Origin: Elioraea tepida
Lineage (GTDB): Bacteria; Pseudomonadota; Alphaproteobacteria; Acetobacterales; Acetobacteraceae
Direction: 5' to 3'
Assembly: GCF_019203965.1 (NCBI RefSeq)
Contig: NZ_CP076448.1
Location: 2,061,001 to 2,125,000, forward strand
Length of the DNA stretch: 64,000 bases
Below the pieces are notes generated by a model. The model saw only the letters and a list, made by a program, of their open reading frames with translations, was not told the origin of the DNA and did no database searches. Shown piece after piece: positions 30,972 to 48,953 of the stretch (the stretch's first letter is position 1; each line of letters begins with the position of its first letter). The position numbers and the translations under genes were made by a program.

Positions 30972-31646
30972 TCAGCGCGCTTGGCGGAGCAGCCCCACGA
31001 GCCGCTCGGCTTCGGCCAGCACGGGCCCGATCGGCAGGATGAGCACGACCGGGGTCTCGCGCGGCGGCGCAGCGGTCGCGCCCGCGCGAAGCGAGAGGAG
31101 TTCGCTCGCCGAGGGGTTCACCGCCGCCGTCACCAGCCCGACGAGAGCGCCGGAGGCGTCGGTTACCGGGCCACCCGAGAAGCCGAACGCCACCGGCAGG
31201 CGCGCGAATAGGGCGGGCCCCCAGGCCTCGTTCCAGGGCCGGGAGACGATGCTGCCATGCACCCGGTCGCCCGAGGGCCCGCGTGCCGAGACGGCCGCGC
31301 CGGCGCCCGGCGTGGCCGCGATCGCAGGGTTGGGGCCAAGCGGCTCCGCGGCCACGAGGACGGCGATGTCGAGCCGGCCGCTCACGCCGGCGATCGTTGC
31401 CGGCATGATCCGCCCGCCGAGCGAGAGCGCCACCTCTGCTCCACGACGCTCAGCGAGGTCGATCACATGCCGGTTGGTCAGGACGTAGCGGCCGCCGATC
31501 GGCGTCGCCGAGCCGAGAAGCCGCGCCGTTGCCGCCTCGACGACCGCGAGAGGGTCGGGAGAGGTTGCCCGTGCCGGGGCCCCGGGCAGGCATGCAATGG
31601 CGAGCCATGTCAAGAGAGCAAGCGAGCGGCATGCGACGTGTGTCAT
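30972..31646 (-). CDS. Secreted trypsin-like serine protease
   Basis: 224 residues with a signal peptide ending near PARA. It is a compact chymotrypsin-fold (S1C-like) protease without PDZ domain. The triad is H60 in LTNRHVID, D93 in GRLDIAVL and S157 in GFSGGPVTD, where most relatives have GNSGGP. It is expected to act in the periplasm or outside the cell. It is on the same strand and 103 bp downstream of the giant-protein export operon, so it could be its last gene or an independent one. A role in processing the giant protein is only a hypothesis. Confidence 0.82.
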   Translation of the reverse strand: MTHVACRSLALLTWLAIACLPGAPARATSPDPLAVVEAATARLLGSATPIGGRYVLTNRHVIDLAERRGAEVALSLGGRIMPATIAGVSGRLDIAVLVAAEPLGPNPAIAATPGAGAAVSARGPSGDRVHGSIVSRPWNEAWGPALFARLPVAFGFSGGPVTDASGALVGLVTAAVNPSASELLSLRAGATAAPPRETPVVLILPIGPVLAEAERLVGLLRQAR

Positions 31647-31749: not shown

Positions 31750-33477
31750 CTACATCCAAAGCAGGCGTCGCAGGCTCATCCCGGCGTCGCCGACCGCCCA
31801 GGCGAGCCACGTCGTCTCGCCGACCTCGACCCGCGCCACCCCCTCGGCGCCCGGCCGGAGCGGGGTGTCGCCGTGGCCTTCGGGAAGCAGCGCGATGGCG
31901 CGGAACACGTTCCGCCCCTGCACGACCTCGGCCATCGGGCGGACACGCTCGATGGTGATGGGGACGCGCGCTGCCGGATCGGCGGCCGGGGAGAGCCAGC
32001 CTCTCTGCCCCGGCCGGACGAGATGCGCCCGCGCCTCGGGCAGCAGGAGCTCGGCCCTGAGATCGTCCGGGGCGGCGATCTCGAACAGGGTCTGGCCCCG
32101 TGCGAGCGCTTGGCCGAGGCTGCGGCGCAGGTCGCCCGCGAGCACGGCCCCCGAGGCCGGGGCGCGGATCTGGGCGAGAGCGAGGCGATGCTCGAGGAGC
32201 GCGCGCTGCGCCTCGCTCCGGCGTGCCGAGAGCTCGGCGATCATCTCCTGTGCCGGCTGCCCGGCCGCGCGCGCGATCGCCGCCTCGCGCCGGTCGTTCG
32301 CCGCCCGCGCCCGCACCGCGGCGAGCTCGAGCTCGAGCTCCCGGGTCGAGAGCCGCGCCAGCACCTCTCCTTCGGAGACGAGGTCTCCCGGCCGGACCGA
32401 GGAGGCCTCGAGCACGCCGTCGAACGGCGCCGTCACCACGTGCACGACCGAGGGCTGGGCGACGAAGCTCGCGACCACCTCGTCGGGGCGCGGCGTGACG
32501 GCGGCAAGCCCGACCAGAAGCGTGAGCGCGGCCACCGGCCAAAGTCTCGCCAGATGCCGCGCGCGGCGCCGTCGCGCCGCTGAGTTGCGTGTGCCGTCGC
32601 CGAGCAGCGCGAGCGCGGGCCGCAACAGCGCCGCCGTTGCTTCGGCCGATGCCGTAGGAGAGTCGCGCCAAAGCACGAGAGCGCAGGCACCAGCGGCACG
32701 GTCTGGCACGACGAGGCAGCCGGGTGAGGCAAGGACCTTGGGGAAGGCGCGGGCGGCGGCGGAGGTTCCTGACGCGTCGGGCAGGGCGAGCGTCTCGCCC
32801 CGGTCGAGCGCCTCCTCCATCGCGAGAGCGAGCGCCCGGACAAGCTCGGTGCGCGGGTTGACGGCGGGCTGGTCGGAGAGGGCGAGGGCGGCGACGCGAC
32901 CGCCGCGCACCAGCCCGAGCGCGAGCCGCGTGCCGGAGGGAAGGAGCGCGGCGAGACGCGCCGCCGCGGCGGCGAGGCCAGCCTCCTCGTCCCCCGCCGA
33001 GCGCTTGGCGCGCGCGGCTTCGGCTGCCGCCGCTGCCGGCACGAGAGCCGACGAGGCAGCGGCCAATCCCGAAGCTTCGGCGAAGGCGGAGAGCAGCGCG
33101 AGACGCTCGCGCGTGAGCGCGCGATCGACCGGCGAGGCGCAGGGGGCGAGAACCACGAGCGCGCTCGCCCCGTCGAGCGGCGCCGCCATCAGCCACGCCC
33201 TCGCTCCTGCCTCGCGCGCGACCACGGCACGTGTTTCCAACGCCGCGCGCGCTGCCTGCGCCCAGCCCTCGGGCAACGTCCCTGCCTCGGCCGGGGCGAG
33301 CACGGAGAGGCCGGAAGCGGTTGCGCCGATCACCGCTCCCGCCTCCGCCAGGGTAAGGTCGCGCGCGAAGGCGAGCACGAGGCCCGGCCAGTCCGGAGCG
33401 AGGCGACGGTCGCGCAGCTCGGCGAGGCGTCGCGCGAGCGCGTCCCCCCCTGGTGTCGCAGTGCCCGGCGCGTTCAT
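31750..33477 (-). CDS. HlyD-like membrane-fusion protein with cytoplasmic GAF-like half
   Basis: 575 residues in two halves. Residues 1-300 are soluble, Ala-rich and carry one or two GAF-like regions, for example LPSGTRLALGLVRGGRVAAL and ELVRALALAMEEALDRGE. One membrane helix follows near 308-325. The periplasmic half is a membrane-fusion adaptor: half lipoyl motif (VTAPFDGVLEASSVRPGDLV), a coiled-coil hairpin, second half motif (IRAPASGAVL) and a beta-barrel part. The start overlaps the preceding HlyD gene by 4 bp. A cytoplasmic sensory half on an adaptor is unusual for type I secretion and may couple export to a small ligand or to a partner protein. Confidence 0.82.
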   Translation of the reverse strand: MNAPGTATPGGDALARRLAELRDRRLAPDWPGLVLAFARDLTLAEAGAVIGATASGLSVLAPAEAGTLPEGWAQAARAALETRAVVAREAGARAWLMAAPLDGASALVVLAPCASPVDRALTRERLALLSAFAEASGLAAASSALVPAAAAAEAARAKRSAGDEEAGLAAAAARLAALLPSGTRLALGLVRGGRVAALALSDQPAVNPRTELVRALALAMEEALDRGETLALPDASGTSAAARAFPKVLASPGCLVVPDRAAGACALVLWRDSPTASAEATAALLRPALALLGDGTRNSAARRRRARHLARLWPVAALTLLVGLAAVTPRPDEVVASFVAQPSVVHVVTAPFDGVLEASSVRPGDLVSEGEVLARLSTRELELELAAVRARAANDRREAAIARAAGQPAQEMIAELSARRSEAQRALLEHRLALAQIRAPASGAVLAGDLRRSLGQALARGQTLFEIAAPDDLRAELLLPEARAHLVRPGQRGWLSPAADPAARVPITIERVRPMAEVVQGRNVFRAIALLPEGHGDTPLRPGAEGVARVEVGETTWLAWAVGDAGMSLRRLLWM

Positions 33478-34274
33478 CGGCCGAGCGCTCCGAGATCGAG
33501 CGCCGCCTCCATCCCGGCGGGCAGGGCGAGATCGGGGTTCGCGATCGTGAACACCGCCCGGAACCGGCCCGAGGCGGCATCCAGAACAGGGTCGACCGAG
33601 CGGAGCACCGCCTCGACCGGGCGGTCGACCGGAGCGGCGAGGTCGAGCGTGTAGGTGCCCCCCAACCTGAGCCTCGGCCAGACGCTGGCGGGAAGGAACA
33701 GGACCGCCTCGAGCACGGAGAGGTCTGCCACTGTCACCAGCCGGTCGGCGCGGCTGACCGTCGCGCCGGCGACCACGTCAAGGCGCGTGACGATGCCGTC
33801 GAAAGGTGCGCGAACGAGGAGCTGTTCCGCGGCGGCGCGCTCGACATCGAGGCGCCGCGCCTCAAGCCTGCGCTTCTCCTCCGCACTCTCCACACCGGCG
33901 CGGGCAAGCTCGACGCGCGCGCGCGCCTGGCGCACCTCCCATTCGCCGGCGGCACCCCGTCCGGCTGCCGCGGCGGTGCGCTCGAGCACGGCAGAGGCCT
34001 CCGCGAGCGTCACCCGCGCCTGGCGGAGCTCCGCCTCGTTCGCTGCAGCCGCTTCGGCGAGCGCGATCCGCGCCTGCTGGAGCGCGTCGTCGAGGGCGAG
34101 CAGGAGATCGCCCTTCCTGACCCTCTCGCCTTCCGCGACGGCGACGTGACGGACCACGCCGTCTACCTGCGGGGCGAGGGCGGCGAGTGCCTGCGGCCGC
34201 GTCGGCCCGCGGACGATCTCCTGCGCCTGGGCGGGCAGGGAGAGCAGAACGAGGAGGAGAGCAAGCGCCCTCAT
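33474..34274 (-). CDS. Periplasmic adaptor (HlyD/RND membrane-fusion family)
   Basis: 266 residues from the ATG at 34274, which overlaps the M50-protein stop as ATGA. The signal peptide is MRALALLLVLLSLPAQAQ. Half lipoyl motif LAPQVDGVVRHVAVAEGERV, a coiled-coil hairpin of ~90 residues rich in Ala/Glu/Arg, the second half motif VRAPFDGIVTRLDVVAGATV and a beta-barrel domain follow. No transmembrane anchor other than the signal is seen, so it is soluble in the periplasm or processed. It would bridge the inner-membrane M50 protein or GAF-HlyD to the TolC-like channel. Confidence 0.85.
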   Translation of the reverse strand: MRALALLLVLLSLPAQAQEIVRGPTRPQALAALAPQVDGVVRHVAVAEGERVRKGDLLLALDDALQQARIALAEAAAANEAELRQARVTLAEASAVLERTAAAAGRGAAGEWEVRQARARVELARAGVESAEEKRRLEARRLDVERAAAEQLLVRAPFDGIVTRLDVVAGATVSRADRLVTVADLSVLEAVLFLPASVWPRLRLGGTYTLDLAAPVDRPVEAVLRSVDPVLDAASGRFRAVFTIANPDLALPAGMEAALDLGALGR

Positions 34275-36388
34275 GCGCCAAGACGCTGCTGGAACAGGCG
34301 CCGCGCCGCGTGCCACGCCTGCTGCGCAAGCGGGGAGGGAGGCAGCGGGATGCGCGCCTCGACGCGCACGCCATGCATCAGGGCGAGGGACGCCTCGGGC
34401 GGGTCGGGGCGTAGGCGCAGCTCGAACACCCGCTCGGCCGTGCGCAGCCCCTCCTCCCCCGGCCGGAGAGCGAAGGGACCGCCATTCGGCGCCGCAAGGG
34501 CCGGGGAGGGAAGCTCGTCGCGCGCGGCAGGACGCGCGCTCTCGGCCCGGGCGGTGAAGAGCGGCCGGGCCTCGCCCCGGCGCCGCACCGGGATCGCGCG
34601 ATCGGGCGCCTGCGCGAGCGAGTCGAACACCTCCGGTCCCTGCGCCTGGTCGAGAACGAGGCGGATCACCATCGGCCCCTCACCGACGAGGGCGCCGAGC
34701 GGCCGCTGCTCGTCGCGCCTGACCCAGGCTCCACGGAGGCGTTCCGCCCGAAGCGGCTGCCACGCAGCACCCGGCGGTGCCGCGACGATCCACGACGCCA
34801 TCTCGGCCGCGAGCGTCGCGTCCTGCACCGCGACCGAGGCCAAGCGTTCCTCGGCCGCATCGATCCGCTCAGGGGTCGCGGCACGGGCGCGCCGCGCCTC
34901 GATCGCGAGCGCCTCCGCCTCGAGCGCGAGCTGCTCGCGAAGCCTGCGCGTCTCGGCATTGTCGAGCGCAAGCACGATGCCCCCGCCCGCCCCGGCCGGG
35001 GCGACGAAGACGAGCTGGCCATCGGCGCGGGGAAAGACGAGCGAGACGGACTCGTTCCAGGCGATGCCGTGGGCGACCGTCCAGTTCGGGACGGGAACGA
35101 GCGCGGCGGCCGCGGCGGTCGCGGCGAGGGAGGCGGCGGCGAGGGTGGCGCGCACCGGCCGCTGCGGACCGATTCGGAGCAAGGCGCGCGCACCTGCGAC
35201 CATCGGCAGCACGAGATAGAGGATCGCGACAACCGCCGCCACCAGGGCGGCGAGCGTCCAGTGCACCCGCGCCGCAAGCCAGAACACGCCCGCGAAGATC
35301 ACGAAGCGCCAGGCGAGCGAGGCGAGACCGTAGGCCGCAAGCGGCCAATCCCTGGGCTGCGGCCGTGCCGCACCCGTCACGAGCCCGAGGAAGCGGAGCT
35401 GCGCCGCCACCGCCCGCGCCTGGAGGTTCGGGATGCCCGCGAGATCGGCGAGCACGTAGTAGCCGTCGAGCCGCACGAGCGGGTTGGCATTGAAGAGCAG
35501 GGAGGAGACGGAGGCGATCACCACGAGCTCGGCAAGCCGGTCGCGCAGCGCGCCTTCGGCAAGGAAGGCGGCGAGGCTCGCGGCCGCGGCGGCGACGGTC
35601 AGGTCCATCCAGATTCCGGCGAGCCCGACGGCGGCGCGGCGCCAGCGGTCGGCCACGAACCAGATGCCGCTGACATCCACGTAAGGGGCGGGCAGAAGGA
35701 ACATGAAGGCGAGGCCGAAGGGGAAGCTCTCGATCCCGTGCCCCTCGGCCGCGGCCATCCGCCGTGCGGCGGCGGCATGACCGCACTCGTGCAAAAGCTT
35801 GCTGCCGACGAACAGGAGGTACCAGGTGGTGAGGTCGCCGAGCGAGGGGTCGGCCATGCGAGCGATCTGGGAGGCGACCACCTCGCCGCGCCCTGCCCAG
35901 AGCAGCGCCGCAACAAGCATCAGGGCCGACGCGGCGATTGCCCCGGCGCGCGTGTAGGGCCAAGCGAGAAGCCCGCCCGCGCGGACGATCACTGGGCCGA
36001 GATCGCCCAGCTGCACGCGCGTGATCAGGGCGCTTCGCAGCATCGCAAGGCCCGCGGGGGCTTCAGGCGGCGGTGGCAGCCGAGCGCCCGGGACCACAAT
36101 CACTCCGGCGGCGGCAAGCCCCGTAAGCCCTTCGCGAAGCGCGGCGTCGTCAGGCTCTCCCGGCCCGGGCGGCGGCAGGGACGCGATCGCCTCCGCGACA
36201 GTGGTCCGCCCGTCGAGACGGCACAGCAACGCCCAGCCGCGCGGCGTGGTCCGCAGGTAGCGCCCGGTGGCCGGGTTGAACAGCACCCAAGACGGCGCGC
36301 CGCCGAGCACGACCCGTCGCGCGACGATGCCGGGCGACAGCACCGGCCGCGCCGCCTCGATCGGCGTCCTGCCGGGCCTTCCCCTCAC
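34271..36388 (-). CDS. PqqD-like / M50 site-2 protease-like / HlyD fusion membrane protein
   Basis: 705 residues. Residues ~20-100 resemble a PqqD-type peptide-binding fold (WVLFNPATGRYLRTTPRGWA). Several membrane helices follow, with the M50 zinc motif HECGH at 200-204 and the second motif NPLVRLDG at 302-309, so both metal-binding parts of a site-2 protease are intact. After further helices (to ~455), a periplasmic C-terminal part shows HlyD features: half lipoyl strand, a short coiled coil (REQLALEAEALAIEARRARA) and a barrel. No ABC or Walker motif is present. It lies in the middle of the giant-protein operon, 18 bp after the lipoprotein gene and overlapping the HlyD gene. Probable inner-membrane component; whether it cuts or merely binds the substrate is unknown. 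Confidence 0.8.
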   Translation of the reverse strand: MRGRPGRTPIEAARPVLSPGIVARRVVLGGAPSWVLFNPATGRYLRTTPRGWALLCRLDGRTTVAEAIASLPPPGPGEPDDAALREGLTGLAAAGVIVVPGARLPPPPEAPAGLAMLRSALITRVQLGDLGPVIVRAGGLLAWPYTRAGAIAASALMLVAALLWAGRGEVVASQIARMADPSLGDLTTWYLLFVGSKLLHECGHAAAARRMAAAEGHGIESFPFGLAFMFLLPAPYVDVSGIWFVADRWRRAAVGLAGIWMDLTVAAAAASLAAFLAEGALRDRLAELVVIASVSSLLFNANPLVRLDGYYVLADLAGIPNLQARAVAAQLRFLGLVTGAARPQPRDWPLAAYGLASLAWRFVIFAGVFWLAARVHWTLAALVAAVVAILYLVLPMVAGARALLRIGPQRPVRATLAAASLAATAAAAALVPVPNWTVAHGIAWNESVSLVFPRADGQLVFVAPAGAGGGIVLALDNAETRRLREQLALEAEALAIEARRARAATPERIDAAEERLASVAVQDATLAAEMASWIVAAPPGAAWQPLRAERLRGAWVRRDEQRPLGALVGEGPMVIRLVLDQAQGPEVFDSLAQAPDRAIPVRRRGEARPLFTARAESARPAARDELPSPALAAPNGGPFALRPGEEGLRTAERVFELRLRPDPPEASLALMHGVRVEARIPLPPSPLAQQAWHAARRLFQQRLGA

Positions 36389-36406: not shown

Positions 36407-36829
36407 CTAGAAGCGGAAATCCACCGTCCGTCCGTCCTGGCCCGTGCACCGGCCCGAGCCGCCGCCGTCGAAGCCGCGTGCCGGGTTCAAGAGGCGAAAG
36501 GCGCAGGCGAGGGTGGTCGTGCCGTCGGTGATCTCGCCTGCGAGCTCGGTGTCGGTCACGAACGGCGTCGGCGCGGTGCCGCCGGCGGCGAGCGGCACGA
36601 GCACCGGACGCTCGGCGCGCGCGAGGCGACCGGTGAGAAGCTGCCCGTCGGCGCCGACGAGCTCCATCCGGTGGCCGGCGCCATCGGCTGTCATGCGGGC
36701 GGTGGCCACACGGGGGGCCTGGCCGGCGCGCAGACTGTCGGCTCCGTCGAGAAGCACTGGCCGGTTCGCCGGGCCGGCGCAGGCGGCAAGCAGGGCGAGG
36801 GTGAGGGCTGCAAGGATCGGTCGTGTCAT
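36407..36829 (-). CDS. Small lipoprotein of the giant-protein operon
   Basis: 140 residues. The N-terminal signal MTRPILAALTLALLAACAGP contains a lipobox (LAAC), so the mature protein is lipid-anchored at about Cys17. The mature part has alternating hydrophobic strands (RMELVGADGQLLTGRLARA, ELAGEITDGTTTLACAFRL) and ends in GRTVDFRF, a C-terminal Phe as in many periplasmic or outer-membrane proteins. It overlaps the TolC-like gene by 4 bp. No family is recognised; the context suggests an accessory factor for export or anchoring. Confidence 0.75.
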   Translation of the reverse strand: MTRPILAALTLALLAACAGPANRPVLLDGADSLRAGQAPRVATARMTADGAGHRMELVGADGQLLTGRLARAERPVLVPLAAGGTAPTPFVTDTELAGEITDGTTTLACAFRLLNPARGFDGGGSGRCTGQDGRTVDFRF

Positions 36830-38643
36830 GGTGTCCGTCCGTTCCGTGGAGCAGGTTGCGGCGAGCGGCCTTCTGCCGCGGAGCTGCGCTGCAGGACGTA
36901 GCTCGGCCCGCGGGCAGCGTCGTCGATCTTGCGCACGTCGAGGTTCTCGAGGCTCGTGAAGGTGCCCTGGACGCGGGCGAGCACGAGGAAGGCGAGGGTG
37001 AACCCGACCTGGGCGGCGGCCACGCGCTCCTCGGCTTCGGCGAGCCGCTCCTGCGCCTGCAAGAGAAGGTCGAGCGCGGTCGCGCCGGCAAGTCCGCTGC
37101 CGACCCCCTGTCGGAAGCGCTCGGTCTGGATGTTCACCTCCGTCTGTGCCGCGCGCATCGCGAGGGCCCGCGCCGCCACCTCCCGGAAGGCGACATTGTA
37201 CTCGTTCAGCGTCACCTCGCTTTCGGCGACGATGGTGGCGAGCGTCGCCCGGCCCTGGCTCTCCACCTGCCGCGTCTCGAGCCGGCGCCGTTCGAGCCGC
37301 GCGGCGAGGTCGTCAGACTGAAGCGGCACCTCAAGGCGCAGTCCGATGGTGCCGCCCGGACGCTGGAGATTGTTGTAGCGGTCGAACGCCTCGCCGAACT
37401 GGTAGCGGCCGAGCCCGCGGCCGCCCTGCGTTCCCTCGAGCACTATATCAAGCCGCGGCAGCGCCTCCACCTGCGCCTGGCCCTCGCGCAGCACAGCGGC
37501 GCGATGCTGCAGGTAGAGCTGGTGAACCTCAGGGCGGAGCGCGATCGCCCGCTCGAGCACGGTGGCAAGCCCGATCGGCTCGTAGCGGTCGAGCGGCGTA
37601 TCGGAGGGCATGAGTTCGGTGATGCCCTGCTGACCGAAGCGCGGATCGTTGACGAGGCCGCGTAGCCTCACCTCGGCGTTACGCACGCCCGCGCGTGCCC
37701 GTAGCACCTCCGCCTCCCGCGTGGCCAGCGCGGTACGGGCGCGGTTGAGCAGCAGCCCATCGGCATCGATCCCCCGACGTGCCTCAAGCTGGGCGACAAT
37801 CGGACGTACCTGCGCGACCAGGCGCTCCTTCACGAGCAGGGTCACGCGCGCGAGATGGAGCGTCCAGTAGGCGCGGGCGACCTCGAGCAGGTGGTTCTCC
37901 GCCTGGCGGCGGAACTCGCTCTGCGCCACCCGCGCATCGACCCGCGCCACCTCGTGGATCGAGCGCACATAAGCTGTGCCTGAGTCGCGCAACAGCGGCT
38001 GGACGATGGTGATGAAGCTTTGCGCGACCGTCTGCCGCTGCGGGACGAAGTCGACCGAGTTCGTCGAGAAGTTCAGGAAGCGCTGGCCCATCGTGACTTC
38101 GCCGCCGGTGATCAGGCGCTGGCGCAGGCCGAACTCGGTCGCCACTTCGTTGCGCAGAAGGCGCTCGGAGCCGAGCGTGTTGGCGAGGCTCCGGGTCGGG
38201 TCGTTCACCTGGCCGATGCGGCCTTCTGCGAAGCCGCGCGGCACGTAGCGGCCGGCCACCTCCGCCTCCTGCAGATCGCGGATGGCGGGGAGGTCGCCGA
38301 ACACGCGCAGCTGCGCCGAATAGAGGATGGCGCTGTCGTACATATAGGCGAGGCTGACCGGGATCGCCCGCCCGCCCGGCTCGATCGGGCGCACAACCGC
38401 CTGCTGCCACCAGGGGCGGAGGCTTCGCACCGCAGCCTGCTCGGCCGCGGTCGGCGTCGGAAGCGGCGGCGGGCGCACCCCGGCACGCTCGAGCTCCTCC
38501 CTGAGATCGTTTCGATATCGAGCGGTGATCTGGTCGACATTGGCGATCGCGTTGTCGAACCGGTCCGAGAACCAGCCCTGGGCGTGGGCCTGTGCGGGCA
38601 ACGCGGCGGCGAGCAGGATCGGCAACAGGCGAAGCATGGTCAT
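36826..38643 (-). CDS. TolC-family outer-membrane channel
   Basis: 605 residues from the ATG at 38643 (an ATG at 38637 and one at 38673 are alternatives). The signal peptide is TMLRLLPILLAAALPAQAHA. The chain has the long coiled-coil pattern of TolC proteins in two repeats, with RQAENHLLEVARAYWTLHLA in the first, EVHQLYLQHRAAVLREGQAQ and QERLAEAEERVAAAQVGFTL in the second. It is longer than E. coli TolC, mainly at the N-terminal periplasmic part. It begins 43 bp after the giant-protein gene and overlaps the lipoprotein gene. It should provide the outer-membrane exit of the export apparatus. Confidence 0.88.
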   Translation of the reverse strand: MTMLRLLPILLAAALPAQAHAQGWFSDRFDNAIANVDQITARYRNDLREELERAGVRPPPLPTPTAAEQAAVRSLRPWWQQAVVRPIEPGGRAIPVSLAYMYDSAILYSAQLRVFGDLPAIRDLQEAEVAGRYVPRGFAEGRIGQVNDPTRSLANTLGSERLLRNEVATEFGLRQRLITGGEVTMGQRFLNFSTNSVDFVPQRQTVAQSFITIVQPLLRDSGTAYVRSIHEVARVDARVAQSEFRRQAENHLLEVARAYWTLHLARVTLLVKERLVAQVRPIVAQLEARRGIDADGLLLNRARTALATREAEVLRARAGVRNAEVRLRGLVNDPRFGQQGITELMPSDTPLDRYEPIGLATVLERAIALRPEVHQLYLQHRAAVLREGQAQVEALPRLDIVLEGTQGGRGLGRYQFGEAFDRYNNLQRPGGTIGLRLEVPLQSDDLAARLERRRLETRQVESQGRATLATIVAESEVTLNEYNVAFREVAARALAMRAAQTEVNIQTERFRQGVGSGLAGATALDLLLQAQERLAEAEERVAAAQVGFTLAFLVLARVQGTFTSLENLDVRKIDDAARGPSYVLQRSSAAEGRSPQPAPRNGRTP

Positions 38644-38686
38644 TGTGCGCGCGGGGCTCCGACTCAAGTGCATGCGCGAGTATGCA

Positions 38687-41600
38687 TCAGTTGAGGCGGC
38701 CGCTGGGCACCGTGGAGTTGGCGAGGAACTCCATCGCGAACTTGTTCAGAGCGAGGCCGAAGGGGCGGCTCACGCCCGGCATCGCGGTCGCAAGCGCCGC
38801 GATGCCACCCGGGCTCGCCTCGCCGAGCGCATCGACTGGGCCGGTCGCGAATGTGGAGGAGCCGCCGGTGCCCGCGAAGTAGAGGCGGGTGTTGTCGGCC
38901 CCGTCTGCTTCGGCGTCGAGCCGGGTCGCAAGCCCCTGCTGGGGGGTGAGCGACAGGGCGGCGGCGGCGGCGGTGGTGGACGGGGGCGGCGGCTCCCGCG
39001 TAACCGAGGGCAGATCGGCATTGACGTTCCGGATCGGCCCGCCCGCCACCGGCATCGAGGCGCGCAGCGTCTCAGTGTTCTCCTTCGGCGCCGGTGCGGT
39101 CTCGAGGCCCGGCATCGCGACGAGCCAGTTGCCGCCGAGATCGGCATGACGCGTCTCCTGCGCGACGATCGCTCCGGTGGCGTCACGCACCACGAAGCTG
39201 ATCGCCGCTCCAGGCGTTGCCGTTCCGGAATAGACAGGCGGCGGAGCGGAGCGGGGAGGCGGCGTCGCCTCCGACAGGAACCGCTCAAGCGCATCGAGCC
39301 CGCCGAACAGGGGACCGCCGAGAAAAAAGCTGTTGAGGACCACCGCGGCCGTGTCGCTGCCGGCGAAGGGGCGGACGAAACCTGCCGGGCCGCCCGGAGC
39401 CGAGGCGGCGTCGAACCCGCCCGTGTTCTGCACCACGCCTTGCGGCGGTGACGCCACCGGGATCGCCTGGAACGTCACGACCATGCTCTGGCCGAGCGGC
39501 AGAACGGGCGCGGTGACGCGCACCGCCGTGTCGCCCGCTCCGTTGCCGCTCTCGATCGTGCCGAAGCTCGTCGTGACGCTGCCCGAAACCAGCGCGAGGG
39601 AGGTGCCGGCGAGCGTGTCGCCGAGCGCAACACCGTAAGCCGGCGCTGTCGAGCCGGGGCCATGCGCAAGCACGAGCGTGTAGGTGACCGGCTCGCCGAG
39701 GAGAGCGAAGGGGCGGTCGGCCGACTTTTCGATCGTGAGCAGGGGGGCGACCACCTCAGCACCGGCAGAGGCGCCCGCGACAAGGGTCCCGCCGGGGTTG
39801 CCCGGGGCGGTCGGCGCCGTCACGGTCAGCGCGGCGTCGTTCGCAAGCAGCGTGCCTGACTGGTTCGATGGCACATCCGCCACCCGCGCCGTGATCTCGA
39901 TCGTGATCGTGTCGTCGCTCGGATCGTTGTTGCCGGCAGCGACGATCGTGCCGAGATCGAAACTCACGCTCTGGCCCGCGATCACCCCAGGTGTTCCGAC
40001 GAGCCCCGGTGGCAGCCCGGCGCCGACGGCGGTGATCACGGCCGTCTCGGGAACGAGGCCGAGGGGAAGCGTATCCGTGATGACGACGCGCTGCGTTCCC
40101 TCGCCGAGGGTCGCGACGATCCGATAGGTCGCGACCTCGCCGATCGCGAGGTCGGGCCGGTCCGGGTCGAAGAGATCGGAGCCCGTCTCGGGAAGCGAGG
40201 TGGCGACGATCGTCTTCTCGAGCGCGATCGGGAAGGCGCCGACCAAGGTCGCGCTCGCACTGTCGCCGCCGGGGCGGCCGATCGGCCCGGGAGACGATGC
40301 GTAGCTGACGGTCGCGTTGTTGGTGACGATCTGTCCGGGCTCGATCGACTCGCCGAACCGCGCCTGGAATGTCACGATCACGGCAGGATCGGTCGGCAGG
40401 AGCACGGGGATGTCGATTCGGATCGTGTCGCCGATCACCGTCGCCGTGCCGAGGGTGGTCGCGAGGCTTCCGGGCTCGACCACGAGCGGGAAGGGGAGCG
40501 TGTCGGTCACGACGATGTCGAAGGCAGGGCCACTTCCCGAAGGCGTGATCGTGACCGTGAAGGTGAAGAGATCGCCCGCATCGCCCGCAGGCCGGTCGAC
40601 CGTCTTGCCGATCGCGAGCGCGGGCTCGACGACCAGCACGGCGACGCGATCCTCCTCCCGCCCCGTCTCGCCGCGGATCGCGTAATCGAGGCGCGCGTCG
40701 TTGGCGAGGATCGCGCCATCCCTCACCGCGGGGATGTCCGCCACCTCGGCGACGATCCGCACCGTCACCTGGTCCTCGGCGCCGATGGCGGGGCCGGAGG
40801 CGTTCACCACGGTGCCGAACTCGAAGCGCACCGCCTGACCGGCGATCGTGCCCGAGTCGCCCGGCGCGAGCGCACCCCCCGTGATCCCGGAGCCGACCGA
40901 GACGACCGTCGCCGCGAGCGGCACGAGCCCGGGCGGAAGGAGATCGGAGATCACGAGATCGCCGACCGTCCCCTGCGGCAAGGTGGCGACGAGCTCGTAG
41001 GTGATCCGTTCCCCGACCGTGACGGAATCAGCTGCCGTCTCGGCGATCGAGGTCGAGACGATCGTCTTGGCGAAGCCGGGCGCGAGCGGCACGGCGGCGG
41101 TGTCGGTGACCGACCCCGGCTGGCCGCCGGGCCCTGGGCTCGTGTCGAACGCGGCCGTCGCGGTGTTCAGCACGGTGGCGCCCGTGGGCGCTGTGGCCGC
41201 CACCCGGGCCGCGAAGGTGACCGTCACGACCTCCCCGACCGCGAGCTCATCGACCGAGACCGCGACGCTTGTGTCACCCGGATCATTTCCCGTAACCACC
41301 GTTCCGGCCGATGTGGTGACCGTCCCGGGCACGAGCGAGAGCGCCTCATCCGCAAGCGTGTCGGCGATCACGAGGTCGTAGGCCGGAGCGGTCGAGCCGG
41401 GGGCGTGCCGAAGCGTCAGCGTGTAGGTGATCGTCTCGCCGGGCCGCGCAAAGCCGCCCGGATCGCTCTTCTCGAGCACGAGCGCGGGCGCGACCACATC
41501 GGCCACGACCCGCGCGGTGTCGATCTCCGTTCCGCCAGGGCGGCCGGGATCGGTCGGCGAGGAAACGGTCGCCGTGCCCGCATTGGCGAGCACGGTTCCC

Positions 41601-44600
41601 GGCAGGGTCGAGGGGGTGTCGGCGACGCGCGCGACGATCTCAACCGCCACCGTTCCGTCGCCCGGGTCGTTGTTGCCGCTGTTGACCACAACGCCGAAAT
41701 CGAAGCGCACCTCCTGGCCAGAGACCGTCGGCACGACGCCCGCAAGAGCGGGCGGCAGGCCGGAGCCGACCGAGACAACGCGCCCCTCCTCGAACACGAG
41801 GCCCTCGGGGAGCGTGTCGGTGATCACGAGGCGCTGCGTGCCTTCCGAAAGGGTCGCGGTCAGACGGTAGGTCACCGTGCCGCCGATCGCGAGGTCAGGA
41901 TTTTCGGGGTCGAACGCGCCGCTGCCGAGCTCGGGGCTCGTCGCAACGATCGCCTTCGTCAGCGTCACCGGCATCAGCACCGTGACGGTCGCGGTCGTTG
42001 CGCCCGCGACGCTGCGAACGTCCTCGCCCGCGAGCGCCGGCGGCGCGCTAAGCGCAGCGAATCGCGCATCGTTGACGAGCGCCTCACCCGGCTCGACCGT
42101 GTCGTCGAGCCGCGCGCGATAGGTGACGACGACCCGGGTGTCGTCGGTGGGCGTCAGCGACGTGTCGGTGGGAAGCAACGGGTCGTCGCCGAGCGCGATC
42201 CGGATCGTCGTGTCGCCAGGTGTGTTGCCGGTCATGACCGTGCCGCGATCGGCCGTCACGCTTCCGGCAGCGAGCGTCATCCCGGCCGGCAGAAGGTCTG
42301 AGAGCACGAGGTCGTAGGCCGGGGCCGTCGATCCCAAAACGTTCACCACCGTGAGCCGGTACTCGATCTCGTCCCCGGCATCGCCCGTCGGCACCGAGGG
42401 CTCCTTGAAAATCCGGAGGGTCGGCTCGACCACGTCGACGACGGCCCGGTCGGTCCGCACGATCCGAACCGACGGATCGGATGGCGCGCCGACCTGCACC
42501 TCGCCGTCGTTGCGCAGCGCGCGCCCGGCGACATTGTCGGGGATGTCGGTGACGCGCGCGCGGATGACCACCGCCACCTGGTCACGCGAATCGGTGACGT
42601 TGTCGCCCGGGTTCACCACGGTGCCGAAGTCGAAGGTGACGGTGTTGTCAGCGACCGTGCCGGCATCGCCGACCGAGAGAGCGCTTCCCGAGATGTTGGC
42701 CCCGATCGCGTCGACTCGCGCCTCGAGCACGCGGAGATTGGCAAGCGCGGGCGAGCCTGCGCCGGGGAGAAGGTCGCGCAGGACGAGCGTCTGCGTGCCT
42801 TCGGCGAGGGTGGCGACGATCCGGTAGGTGATGGTCTCACCGATCGCGACATCCGGCGCGAGCGGATCGAAGAACGCGAAGCCCGTCTCGGCGAGGGAGG
42901 TAACGACGACCGCCTTCGAAATCGAGGGCTCCATCGCCACGACGATCCGCGCCGTGTCGGAGGCGGCGTAGTCGCGCTGGAATGAGGGGGCGGACCGGTA
43001 GGCGACGTCGACTCGGTTGTCGATCGCCTGCTGCGGCGCGACACTGTCGCGCAGAACGGCATCGAAGCGTATGGTGACGGGGCTCGCGCCGGGCAGAAGC
43101 GTCGGCAGGTCGACCACGACGGTCGCGTCGCCGGCTCCATTGCCGGTCACAATCGTTCCGGCCGTGGTCGTCACCGTGCCCGGCACGAGCGCCATGTCGG
43201 GCGGAAGGAGATCGGTCAGTCGCACGCCGTAGGCCGGGCCGGTCATCCCCGGCGCTGGCGCGACGACGACGGTGTAGGTGGTGCGGTCGCCCGCATCGCC
43301 GCTCGTTCGGCTCGAGGACTTGTCGATCACGAGCTCAGGCTCGACCACGTCGAGCGCAGCCGTAGCCGGTGCCTGCGGCACCATGTCAAGGAAGCTCTGC
43401 GCGGTGTTGACGAGCACGCGGCCCGAGACGTTGGCGGGGTCGTTCACCACGCGCCCCGTGACGAGCACGACGATCTGGTCGTTCTCGTCGACCACGTTGT
43501 CGGACGCGTTGGTCACCGTTCCGAAGGCGATCGAAAGCCGGTCCGGCCTGCCGTCCCCGTTGCTGTCGACCACCGTCGCGGTCTCGGTGCCAGGGACGAA
43601 GCTGAGATTGGTCGTCGCCCGCAGCGGCAGGATCTCGTAGCTTAGATACTCCATCACGCCGGGGCCGGCGGGCATCTGGTCGACGAGGCTAAGCAGGATG
43701 TTGGTCGCCTCCGGCAGGGTGAGGACGAGCCGGAACACCACCGTCTCGCCGATCGCGACGTCCGGCCTGCCCGGCGCGAACTGGCTCGTTCCCGTCTCGG
43801 GAAGCGAGGTCGCGAACACCTCCTTCTCAAGCGCGGGCACGCCGATTCGCACCCTCTCGGCATCCGCCCCTCTGACCACCACCTCGCCTGCGCGGAGGCC
43901 GGGATACGTGTCGCCCTGGAAACTTGCGACGTTGTCCACTCGCGACCCGGCGATGACCGACTCGTCGATCCGCGCCTGGTAGGTCACGGTCAGCGTCTCG
44001 CCAGCGACCAGCCGATCGATGCCAATCCGGATCGTCGCGTCACCCGAGCCATTGCCCTCAAGAATCGTCGCCGGCACGCCTGAGACCGCCACCGTTCCCG
44101 GCACAAGGATCAGATCCGGGTCCTCTAACAGGTCGGACAGGACGAGGTCATAGGCCGGACCGGCGAAGGCGACGTTCAGGTTCCGCAAGCGAACCGTGTA
44201 GGTGACGATGTCGCCACCGTCTGCCTCGAGACGGTCCGCCACCTTCTCGATCGAAAGACGCGGAACCACCGTCTCGACCCTCGCCTGCGCGCTGATGGTC
44301 CGATCGGTGCCCTCGGAGCGATAGACGAGCTCGCCGCGATTGGTCAGCACCGCACCCGCCGGCGCGCCAAGGTCGCCGCGAAGCCGCGCCGTGACCTCAA
44401 ACACGATCGTGTCGTTTGCGTTCGACACGCCGTCGGGGCGGTTGAACACGTCCCCGAGCGTGAAGGTGACGGTGTCGTTGAACGGATCGGCGTTTCGGTT
44501 GCTCAACGCACCGGCGGCTCCAACCACCGCCCCGGGAGCGGTGAGGTTGGCGCCGACCGAGACGATCGAGGCCGAGCGCACCTCGAGGGGGGGGAGCGTA

Positions 44601-47600
44601 TTCGGCAGAAGGTCAACCAGCCGCGCGTTCAGGGTCGTGCCCTCTGCGAACCGAGCGGTGAGCCGGAAGGTCACCTCCTCGCCATAGGCGAGATCCTGAA
44701 GCGACGGGTTGCCCTGGCTCGTTCCGGTGTCGGCGAGGCTCGTGGAGAACACGGTCTTGGAGAGCGTCGGTCCCGCGATCCGAACAGTCGCGGTGCTCTG
44801 GTCCTCGTGGACGCGCTGGCCCGGAACGTTCCCCGGGGCGCTGTCACCTTGCGCGATCGCGGTGTTGAGCACCGTGCTGCCGCTTTCGACCGTGTCGCTG
44901 ATCCTTCCCCGGTAGGTCACGGAGAGCGTCTCGCCCGGCTTCAGGTCGGGGAGGAAGACGCGAATGCTCTGATCGGTCTGGCCGTTGCCGAGCAGGATCG
45001 AGGCGCGCGCGGCAGCCGTGCCGCCGAGCGTGACCGAGCCTCCGACGAGGCTGAGATCGGGGTCGTCGAAGAGGTCGCGGATGGTGAGGTCGAACACCGG
45101 CGCCGCTGCGGGACCGACCGGATTGGTGACGAGGAGCGTGTAGGTGATGAGGTCGCCGCCGTCGGCAGTGGTCCGGTTCGCCGTCTTGGTGAGCTCGAGG
45201 CTTGGCTCGGCGATCGTCACGCTCTCCGTGTCGGCGATGCTGCGCGTCACCCCTGCCGCGTCAGTGAAGGTGGCTGAGGCGGTGTTGACCAGAACGTCAC
45301 CGCGGCTGTTCTGCGGCACATCAAGCACGGCGGCGCGCACCTCGAACACGATCCGGTCGCGCGCATCGACCACGTTGTCGGCGAGGTTGATCGTATCGCC
45401 GAGCGGGAGGGTGATCGGCCCGGTCTGCGGCACGCCGACCGGCGGGGCGGAGCCGGTGAAGGAGATGGTCGAGCCGAGGGAGACCAGCGTCCAGTCGCGC
45501 AAGGTGAGCACGCCGGGTGTGGTCGGCAGGATGTCGGCGAGCACGAGGTCGCGGGTGAGCCCCTCGCGCAGCGACAGCGTGACGCGGAAGAGAGCCTCCT
45601 CGCCGATCAGAACGAAGGGGTCGGCGCTTTCGGGAAGCGAGGTCGAGACCAGAACCTTCTCGATGATCGGGTCGCCGGTGACAACAGTCGCGTGGTCGAA
45701 ACGGTCAGCAGGCAACAGGTTCACCGCGAAGTCATCGCCGCCTTCGACAGCGGCGTAGCGTGCGATCTCGGCGGTGTTGGTGAGCACGAGCCCGGTCGCC
45801 TGAGCGGCATCGGCCACGCGCAGGTCGTAGGTGATGAGCGCGAGGTTGCGGCCGGTCGGTGCCGTCGGCGGGGAACCGGGTTCGCCCTCGGTAGTGAAGC
45901 GTGCGAGTGCGCCGCCCGGGTCGGTCGGGTCGAGATCGGTGGGGTCGAGGAGTTCGATGCCGCCACCCGGATCGAACAGCCCGCCGCCGCGCAGAACGAA
46001 CGGGATCGCGACACCGTCGCCGCGCGTGACGGTGAGGTTCAGCCCGCCCGGAGGGATCTCGAAGCCCGCAGACAGCGTGTCGCGGATCAGGATGTCGTGC
46101 GCGCCGCGGATGCCGCGGCCGGTGTTCTCGACCACAATCGCGAAGCGCACGAGATCGCCCGCATCGACACCTGCGAGGTCGCTGTCGATCGGGACCTCCG
46201 CGAGCATCGCCGAGGTGATCGTTCCGGAGAAGGGTGCACCCGCGCTGCCCGGCGGGGCGAAGGGCACGGGACCTGTGGCCGCCGGGTCGAAGGAGAGAGG
46301 GAAGACGCTCTGCCCCGTCGCGACGCCGATCACCCCCTTTGTGACGTTCAGCGCCGGCTGCGTGAGCACGAGCTGGGCGATGGCGTTGCCCGTCGCCACT
46401 GCACCGGCCGTGTTGGCCTCGCGCGAGGTGACGAGATTGGTCAGGAACAAGTTGTCACCGAAGGGGCGGCCCTCGACCGGCAGGCGGAACAGGATGTCGA
46501 CCTTCAGCGTCTGCGGCACCTCCATGTGGAAACTGCCGAAGTCGAAGGTGACGCTGTTCGACGCGGGATCGAGCACGAGCGTCGGCGCGCCGGCGTAGCC
46601 GACGGGGTTTGCGAGGTCGAAGGTCTCATCCGGGTGCCACCAGGCGGTTCCCGGGGGCGGCAGGGTGGCGGGATTGGTTCCGTCGTCGCGGAGGTCGAGG
46701 AAGGTGAGGGGGCCGAAATCGCCCACGACGCGAAAGATCGGCAGCGGCAGGAAGTCGGTGAGGGTGAAGTCGTTCGCCGAGCCGGTCGGCAGGGTGTATT
46801 GGAGCCGGAACGTGATCGTGTCGGTGTTCGTGACAGGTGGGGTGGGTGATGCCGGGCGCTCGCCGTTGACGAGGTAGATGCTCTTCGCAAGGCCGAAGCC
46901 GCGCGCAAGCGCGGTCCCGGCTGCGCCGGCGTCGGTCACCGTGCCGCCGCTTCCCGGGATCGTCCCGGCGATCTCGGCGGTGTTGCCGAGCCTGTCTCCC
47001 TGGAGCAGCGGGCGGCCATCGGCGTAGTAGCGCGCGACCGTGCTGTCGAAGGTCACCGCAAGCGTGGTCGGCCCTGCGGGCGCGCCGACGCGGCCGCCCG
47101 AGAGCTCGGGGTCGAGGCCGCGGAAAGCGAGCTCGTCTGCGATTCGAAACGACACCGAGGTCGTTCCATCCGCATTCCCGATGATCGTGACGTTCGAGGG
47201 GTCGAAGGCGCCGGAATGGATCACCACGCCGCCTTCGCGCACGACCAGCGACGGGCTTGTCGGGTCGACGCTCTGGCCGTCCGACAGCGTGTCGGAGAGC
47301 ACGAGGTCGGCGAAGGAGAAGTAGTCGCTGACCTGGGCCGAAAGCGTCCAGCGCAGCGTGTCGAACGGCTCGGGCGCCCCGCCGCCCACCACCGACACGC
47401 TTTTCTGCACCGCAAGCGCGCGGGCGATGAACACGTTTTCCGGGCCGGGCGGATCGACCGTGACGGTGGCGATGGGGTCGCGCGGATCGAGCGGCGTCCA
47501 GGTCGCGGTTGCGGAAAGCTCGTTCGCGAGCGGCCGCGGCGCGCCTGTGGCCGGGTCGAGCACGGGTGTGCCCGGAGCGCCTGGTTCGAGGAACTCGCCG

Positions 47601-48547: not shown

Positions 48548-48878
48548 GCCGAGAAACAAGCCGCGGGCCCTGCGTGACGCAACAGATTTTTTTACGACTT
48601 CTTAAGGATTGCGTGAGGTCGCGACCGGGGAAGCAGGCGGAGACCCGTGCGGGCGGCGCGCGTCACCTCCCTCGACGTTTCGGCTGCCGCGGAGGCGCTT
48701 TTCCCGGCGCATGCCATCGGCGTCATCGCCCGAGGCACCGCGATGGGGAGTGCAGGGGACGCGCCCCGGTGGCGTGCGGCACGCCGGCTCGGCCAGGCTG
48801 GCACTGCGCGGCGGGAGGAAGGAAGCGGGGGCCAAGACAGGCTCACCGCGAGCATCCCCACGCGAGGCCGATCGGCTC
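48548..48878. other. Gene-free region upstream of the giant-protein operon
   Basis: No convincing coding sequence is seen in these 331 bp; short frames here lack family features. The only notable element is an AT-rich island at about 48586-48610 (an A/T run plus CTTAAG) in otherwise very GC-rich DNA, about 45 bp before the giant-protein start. It is a plausible promoter or regulator site for the operon, but no clear -35/-10 pair can be assigned. Confidence 0.4.
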
Positions 48879-48953
48879 TGGTAGCGGCGGACGGATTTGA
48901 ACCGCCGACCAAGGGATTATGATTCCCCTGCTCTACCGCTGAGCTACGCCGCC
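48879..48953 (-). tRNA. tRNA-Met (anticodon CAT), elongator type
   Basis: 75 nt with CCA encoded. Read on the minus strand, the acceptor begins GGCGGCG and pairs with CGCCGCT before ACCA (first pair G-U). The D arm is TAGCTCAGCGGTAGAGCA, the anticodon loop is ATCATAA with CAT at 48919-48921, and the T arm includes GGTTCAAATCC. The anticodon stem lacks the three consecutive G-C pairs of initiator tRNA, and G1-U72 matches alphaproteobacterial elongator tRNA-Met, so it is assigned as elongator rather than fMet or Ile2. Confidence 0.92.

Follow-up and report, generated by a model that had tools for sequence, protein, structure and literature searches.

A predicted RRE, site-2-protease and HlyD-type fusion protein as a candidate core for the export of giant proteins in Elioraea tepida and distant bacteria

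How does a protein of several thousand residues leave a Gram-negative cell when the genes beside its own encode periplasmic adaptors and an outer membrane channel, and no ABC exporter is conserved among them? This question is raised by a gene cluster of Elioraea tepida (Acetobacteraceae; RefSeq assembly GCF_019203965.1), within a stretch of 64,000 nucleotides that we refer to as the window (contig NZ_CP076448.1, positions 2,061,001 to 2,125,000; coordinates below count from its first base). The cluster centers on a gene on the minus strand (34271..36388, with a GTG start at 36388) for a 705-residue protein that is predicted to join three domains: an RRE/PqqD-type leader binder, a site-2-protease (M50) core and an adaptor of the HlyD/MacA type. 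Our preferred reading, to which we assign a probability of roughly 60%, is that this fusion protein forms the core of a leader-guided export machine for giant proteins that has not previously been recognized as such. The observations from which this reading starts are the domain architecture, the gene linkage, a conserved zinc motif, the linkage to SecA and, at the loci, the absence of any conserved ABC exporter.

The three-domain assignment combines sequence motifs, profiles and a structure model. A sequence-only reading of the window had described a PqqD-like amino terminus, an M50 core with its zinc site and an adaptor-like carboxyl terminus, and all three held up. The motifs that it had placed at residues 200–204 (HECGH; 35777..35791, minus strand) and 302–309 (NPLVRLDG; 35462..35485, minus strand) lie at exactly these positions in the translation, with Asp308 the presumed third zinc ligand. 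It had also proposed structure prediction of the protein alone, and the resulting AlphaFold model, built from 77 sequences and then aligned to PDB chains, is confident (mean pLDDT 90.8, pTM 0.82, with values below 50 at residues 1–5 only) and contains both the PqqD fold and the M50 core. The predicted RRE/PqqD-like winged-helix domain (residues ~13–105; 36074..36352, minus strand) aligns with the leader-bound lasso-peptide RRE TbiB1 (5v1u; residues 15–105, Z 8.8, 83 aligned, 3.3 Å). The predicted membrane core (residues ~123–405; 35174..36022, minus strand) aligns, with middling scores, with the site-2 protease of M. jannaschii (3b4r; residues 123–391, Z 9.2, 166 aligned, 4.7 Å) and with SpoIVFB (8vjl; residues 130–321, Z 8.9, 134 aligned, 4.2 Å). 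For the predicted adaptor (residues ~411–696; 34301..35158, minus strand), MacA, AcrA, MexA and ZneB all match at Z 13–14, including MacA over residues 411–696 (9qgy; Z 13.9, 239 aligned, 7.5 Å) and ZneB over residues 432–683 (3lnn; Z 13.1, 214 aligned, 3.7 Å).

Because a Z below 8, or below about 13 for helical bundles, can mean no more than a common arrangement, the structural match of the protease core is modest when taken alone. Homology by single-sequence search is also weak, since Pfam M50 (17.1 bits against a cut-off of 27.2, residues 191–277) and PqqD (16.3 bits against 23.4, residues 34–71) both fall below their gathering scores; the same single-sequence scan found no Pfam HlyD family at E 0.1. 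Relatives on E. coli and Kosakonia plasmids exceed the M50 cut-off, at 34.7 and 27.9 bits. Independent support for the domain assignments comes from the positions of the motifs, from a daptide-protease profile considered below and from the match of a 77-row profile to EmrA over the adaptor tail (4tko, E 1.1e-10, profile positions 485–636). By model and hydropathy, seven membrane-length helices can be counted between residues 147 and 430, the zinc-bearing helix having a hydropathy of just 1.0; with an odd number, the membrane would separate the RRE from the adaptor. Two plus-strand open reading frames (ORFs) of 588 and 610 residues across the gene were read as antisense frames; the window has a GC content of 71.7%.

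The fusion protein extends well beyond Elioraea. Among 200 Acetobacterales genomes, 23 (that of the window included) carry a homolog, at 26 places, and a scan of a species-level genome collection gave at least 591 confirmed relatives. We compared 105 loci, 25 of them from Acetobacterales and 80 distant. The distant set, the best 80 of the at least 591 relatives, spans Planctomycetota, Verrucomicrobiota, Kiritimatiellota, Fibrobacterota, Thermodesulfobacteriota, Nitrospirota, Myxococcota, Chlorobiota, Elusimicrobiota, Omnitrophota, Spirochaetota and Pseudomonadota. There is one fusion gene per locus, and contig ends cut four of the 105 (537–620 residues). HExxH and the downstream D motif occur together in 104 of 105 loci, the sole exception being locus L083, and the zinc motif is therefore not a product of chance. 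The D motif was part of the pattern by which the distant loci (L053–L132) were retrieved and HExxH was not, so that only the conservation of HExxH is unbiased in those 80. P303 and D308 are invariant in two alignments, A1 and A2, of which A2 holds relatives retrieved with an NPLVRLDG-type motif.

This conservation bears on whether the core cuts its substrate or only holds it. Conceivably, the M50 core acts as a non-proteolytic gate or anchor whose zinc site is kept for structure. The absence of the second histidine in L083 would fit such a role, as would the leaders described below, which by hydropathy are not transmembrane segments, unlike the usual substrates of site-2 proteases. We nonetheless find a purely structural zinc site doubtful, given HExxH in 104 of the 105 loci and a daptide relative that has been described as a leader peptidase.

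That relative provides the clearest functional precedent. According to the daptide paper (PMC10036551), an RRE fused to a site-2 protease pairs with the leader motif ELExMEAP, and its authors describe the RRE-dependent intramembrane peptidase MpaP as removing a short N-terminal leader. Processing by MpaB and MpaC was lost on changing either Leu(-7) or Met(-4), two residues that are three positions apart and for which pockets in the MpaB RRE are predicted (PMC10036551). MpaP (NCBIfam NF041824) shares with our protein an N-terminal RRE fused to a site-2 protease, and the leaders compared by eye share two hydrophobic residues three apart by glutamates, in ELExMEAP there and PhiExLExR here. The systems differ in that the daptide model has 379 positions and stops before the adaptor part, and in that daptides involve a peptide substrate and modification enzymes, whereas the genes here encode a giant protein with HlyD, TolC and SecA proteins. 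The daptide protease profile (daptide_HExxH) spans the RRE and protease parts in all eight fusion proteins scanned, namely the window's (E 7e-33) and seven of seven relatives. These matches, along with the public label "PqqD family peptide modification chaperone," could be taken to mean that the fusion protein matures a RiPP (modified peptide). All eight, however, fall below the equivalog cut-off of 300 bits, with 114.2 bits for the window protein and 117.9–172.6 for the relatives. Because no modification enzymes were seen among the annotated neighbors, which are giants, adaptors, TolC and SecA proteins (short precursor ORFs were not searched for), we judge a RiPP pathway extremely unlikely. 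Another reading considered was signaling by intramembrane proteolysis; the annotated neighbor records list no sigma or anti-sigma gene.

What, then, might the RRE read? The presumed substrate is a giant protein of 3290 residues with DUF11 and isopeptide-forming fimbrial-type repeats (38687..48559, minus strand), whose residues 23–31, LEERIMLAA (48467..48493, minus strand), form an LExR-type leader motif that the LEPR-XLL model (NCBIfam NF012209) detects at 19.3 bits in a genome scan (cut-off 17) and at 13.9 bits, below the cut-off, when the protein is scanned whole. The substrate N-terminal motif at these loci is LEPR-XLL or a close variant; in the open-access passages that name it, this domain appears as a label, whereas the present loci link it to a particular set of genes. 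Across ORFs of at least 200 residues at the 105 loci, the pattern LE.R.[LMFIV][LFMYI][SDNAE][AGVT] matches 25 times within the first 90 residues and three times elsewhere (148 against 4 per million residues), an excess that is partly built in because the pattern was written after seeing leaders at the same loci. The distance from the mechanical ORF start to the leader is 4–57 residues. By a hydropathy scan rather than a signal-peptide predictor, the highest mean over any 12 residues stays below 2 in 26 of 26 leaders (maximum 1.99). A leader motif also lies near the start of the giant ORF adjoining the fusion gene in eight of nine named plasmid or megaplasmid records (E. coli, Kosakonia, Azospirillum, Pontibrevibacter with MEPR, Pseudosulfitobacter, Methylosinus, Thalassospira with IEPR and Cupriavidus CH34); in the Cupriavidus record, which has no gene annotation, the start of the giant is not fixed and its frame exceeds the fetched stretch.

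Leader and fusion protein also occur together across genomes. The 200 Acetobacterales genomes contain 18 LEPR-XLL matches in 17 genomes. All 11 matches in ORFs of at least 3304 residues fall within the 23 genomes that carry the fusion protein, nine of them on the same contig; the other seven, in ORFs of 117–706 residues, come from genomes that lack the fusion protein and were taken to be chance matches. In 299 Pseudomonadota genomes, none of which was dropped from the comparison, 47 have an LEPR match, 85 have the fusion protein and 45 have both (odds ratio 119, Fisher p 3e-27, with kinship not corrected). Only two genomes have an LEPR match without the fusion protein, one being 86% complete (G410) and the other having its match in a 64-residue ORF (G477). 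LEPR matches occur in open frames of up to 19,427 residues.

The remaining genes at these loci suggest a path to the outside. HlyD-type ORFs are found at all 25 Acetobacterales loci and at 72 of the 80 distant ones, and a window-derived profile detects TolC at 20 of 25 near and 26 of 80 distant loci, many of which stop at contig edges. Plasmids carry the cassette as well: three records (L146, NZ_CP060066.1; L141, Kosakonia; L142, Azospirillum) encode a giant Ig-like or DUF4347 protein, TolC, two HlyD proteins and the fusion protein, and their stretches contain no SecA gene. Relatives of the Kosakonia fusion protein are present in 52 plasmid records, including 8 from Citrobacter and 18 from Escherichia, of which one was inspected. 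HlyD-type adaptors, a TolC-type outer membrane factor and a giant, repeat-rich neighbor are also features of type I and other tripartite export, in which the inner-membrane parts are named as ABC, RND and MFS proteins in the abstract of the review PMC8277102.

Type I secretion through an ABC exporter encoded elsewhere in the genome, with the M50 part as an accessory leader peptidase, would account for the HlyD and TolC components, but the search for an exporter makes it very unlikely. At the loci, none is conserved: none of the ORFs selected at the 25 near loci has both a Walker A motif and LSGG, and the six ORFs at 5 of the 105 loci that match a loose Walker A and SGG pattern include none conserved beside the gene, one of them (L118:12006-13976) being a SecA-like ORF itself. 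A local ABC exporter was accordingly rejected. Two plasmid records have ABC importer genes some 10 kb downstream. The window's genome, which is 98% complete, encodes three ABC_membrane exporters, none of which reaches the type I secretion cut-off; one passes the glucan-exporter (ChvA-type) cut-offs, and the other two score best against MsbA, below its cut-off. Most distant loci have a dedicated SecA instead, although ABC exporters of the relatives were surveyed at the loci rather than genome-wide.

The dedicated SecA is the part that the sequence-only reading did not foresee. A profile finds a SecA-like ORF at 64 of the 80 distant loci (56 of the 65 with at least 2.2 kb downstream) and at 4 of the 25 near loci (3 of 20), counts that include some partial or weak ORFs (L055, L099, L102, L107). 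The paralog is typically the gene next to the fusion gene, and in plasmid records "preprotein translocase subunit SecA" is the label directly after it. Sixty-three long, strong SecA-like ORFs have a median length of 669 residues. SecA_DEAD, SecA_PP_bind and P-loop_SecA are present in all 40 of these that were scanned, whereas SecA_SW, the wing and scaffold domain, is present in one of 40 (E 0.001) and in the housekeeping SecA of the window's genome; one paralog, when scanned, reached the cut-off of no SecA or SecA2 model. The SecA-like ORFs beside the fusion gene in L099 (~12106) and L107 (~11802), at 136 and 176 bits, are without TGxGKT and are possibly decayed or diverged, and those of L094, L104 and L110 also lack this motif despite 820–940 bits. 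Two SecA-type ATPases are publicly labeled "prepilin peptidase" (L137:23074-25098 and L138:22222-24138).

SecA also follows the fusion protein in its distribution. Of 32 Acetobacterales genomes tested, 22 carry the fusion protein, and 4 of these have extra SecA genes (five in all), as against none of the 10 non-carriers; four of the five lie at the fusion locus, and the fifth (G178) is on another contig, the fusion gene there being at a contig end. On a quick tree of the fusion protein, with warnings for the long row L119 and for letter composition (the window's row included), the presence of SecA changes 8 times, at least 6 of which are forced by starred branches, against 23.7 in shuffles. 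Distances between SecA proteins and between their fusion proteins correlate at r 0.88 over 62 pairs, a value matched in 0 of 2000 permutations. The form of the cassette without SecA is nevertheless common. No SecA paralog is encoded in the locus or the genome of either the window or its nearest relative, and a search limited to the fetched stretches found no TGEGKT in the records from E. coli, Kosakonia, Azospirillum, Thalassospira and Cupriavidus. Azospirillum brasilense Sp7 is of the SecA-less type and has a giant neighbor; Thioclava pacifica DSM 10166 has both the fusion gene and the SecA gene. Leaders ending in [FY]D[GA] are SecA-less in 13 of 13 cases (L039–L046, L052, L147–L150), whereas 7 of the other leaders are SecA-less and 14 have SecA (p 0.00016), in a tally made by hand on rows that are kin.

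Accessory Sec systems (SecA2) likewise devote an extra SecA to particular surface proteins, and SecA2-type proteins are known to cooperate with SecYEG. The giant could cross the inner membrane through SecYEG, fed by a housekeeping or paralogous SecA, with the fusion protein only trimming the leader at the membrane and coupling exit to HlyD and TolC. The domain content of the paralogs, which identifies them as SecA, and the presence of only a housekeeping SecA in the window's genome would suit such a route. The differences from accessory Sec are that SecA here adjoins an RRE-protease-HlyD protein and TolC and that SecA_SW is found in just one of 40 paralogs, unlike the housekeeping SecA of the window's genome; in addition, the leaders have no long hydrophobic segment by the hydropathy of the 26 examined. 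We therefore regard passage through SecYEG as unlikely.

In the export machine that we favor, the cytosolic RRE would bind the N-terminal LExR-type leader of the giant protein, as its fold, the gene linkage and the daptide precedent suggest. The site-2-protease core may hold the leader at the membrane, open for it and probably cut it. A conduit made of the HlyD tail, TolC and two more HlyD-type adaptors, one of which has GAF-like domains, would span the periplasm and outer membrane. A dedicated SecA paralog would be the motor in most distant relatives; the window's subtype encodes no motor at the locus, and housekeeping SecA may drive export there. Tentatively, and with odds that we put slightly short of even, this would amount to a one-step Gram-negative pathway in which a dedicated or housekeeping SecA pushes giants through the fusion core into HlyD and TolC, the leader being a tag that the RRE reads and the protease removes. 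The sequence-only reading had proposed that the amino terminus recognizes the leader of the giant and that the M50 core trims or gates it. The three folds, the pairing with LEPR leaders, the zinc motif and the daptide precedent lend this partial support, with binding and cutting still conjectural; its idea of export named no motor, a picture changed by the SecA paralog beside most distant relatives.

Several observations weigh against this account. The distant loci come mostly from metagenome-assembled genomes. L083 (L083:4062-6230) reads HELGL in place of HExxH and still keeps its adaptors and an LEPR giant; HELGL could be a sequence error in the metagenome assembly. The correlation between SecA and fusion-protein distances implies joint inheritance only, not contact. 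Among the loci with at least 2.2 kb downstream, 26 (17 near and 9 distant) have no SecA-like ORF, and the genome of the window itself has the housekeeping SecA and one sub-cut-off match of 19.4 bits. As for the leader, the Alisedimentitalea giant has none at its annotated start, and 40 of the 85 carrier genomes among the Pseudomonadota, including the window's, have no LEPR match at the threshold used, from which it follows that many substrates carry another leader, such as LEQRYLFDGS, or none.

The surrounding genes of the window lie in a single series on the minus strand: the giant, a TolC-like protein, a lipoprotein-like protein, the fusion protein, an HlyD adaptor, a GAF-HlyD protein and a trypsin-like protease. 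The nearest relative (G066, locus L028, 51% identity) has the same order. The TolC-like outer membrane factor (615 residues; 36826..38673) is identified by Pfam OEP at E 9.8e-16, and the second HlyD-type adaptor has 280 residues (33474..34316). The GAF-HlyD protein (575 residues; 31750..33477) is predicted to consist of a GAF-like N-terminal part, a hydrophobic helix and an HlyD-type adaptor (Pfam HlyD_3, E 2.5e-17). Pfam finds no GAF domain in it at E 0.01 but does name one in its L136 relative. Its structure model (pLDDT 86.9, pTM 0.51) aligns over residues 304–566 with MacA (Z 17.4, 247 aligned, 4.4 Å), over residues ~135–304 with single GAF domains (5hl6; Z 12.5, 148 aligned, 3.3–3.4 Å) and over residues 1–324 with tandem-GAF chains (Z 12–13, root mean square deviation 5.5–7.2). 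The small lipoprotein-like protein (140 residues; 36407..36829; lipobox model E 0.28, below the cut-off) is also present in L028, as is, in the same position, the trypsin-like protease, a possible accessory (30972..31646; Pfam Trypsin_2, E 1.9e-12). In iterated profile searches, the trypsin-like and lipoprotein-like proteins have two relatives and one, respectively, in the 105 loci, with the L028 copies included. A tRNA-Met gene (48879-48953), on the same strand as the giant gene, precedes it by about 320 bases. In other records (L138:17744-18064, L143:12720-13016 and L145:12863-13144), the gene for a DUF3467 protein of 93–106 residues separates the giant gene from the adaptor gene that lies upstream of the fusion gene; the L138 copy is identified by Pfam and the others by their labels.

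In summary, the single parts of this system belong to known families, and the fusion protein is a three-domain joining of known folds. A search of open-access PMC titles, abstracts and passages, preprints not included, found no description of the gene set. Because no paper found there joins the parts, we rate the system as new in kind, if it works as proposed. In that case, the genes now labeled PqqD chaperone, M50 peptidase and biotin/lipoyl-binding protein could be renamed, as could the SecA paralog that is now labeled prepilin peptidase or DEAD/DEAH helicase. Tripartite systems, with their ABC, RND and MFS proteins in the inner membrane, would gain a route of SecA plus adaptors. A short N-terminal motif would gain a reader, and the way in which LEPR-XLL and related giant proteins leave the cell would be explained.

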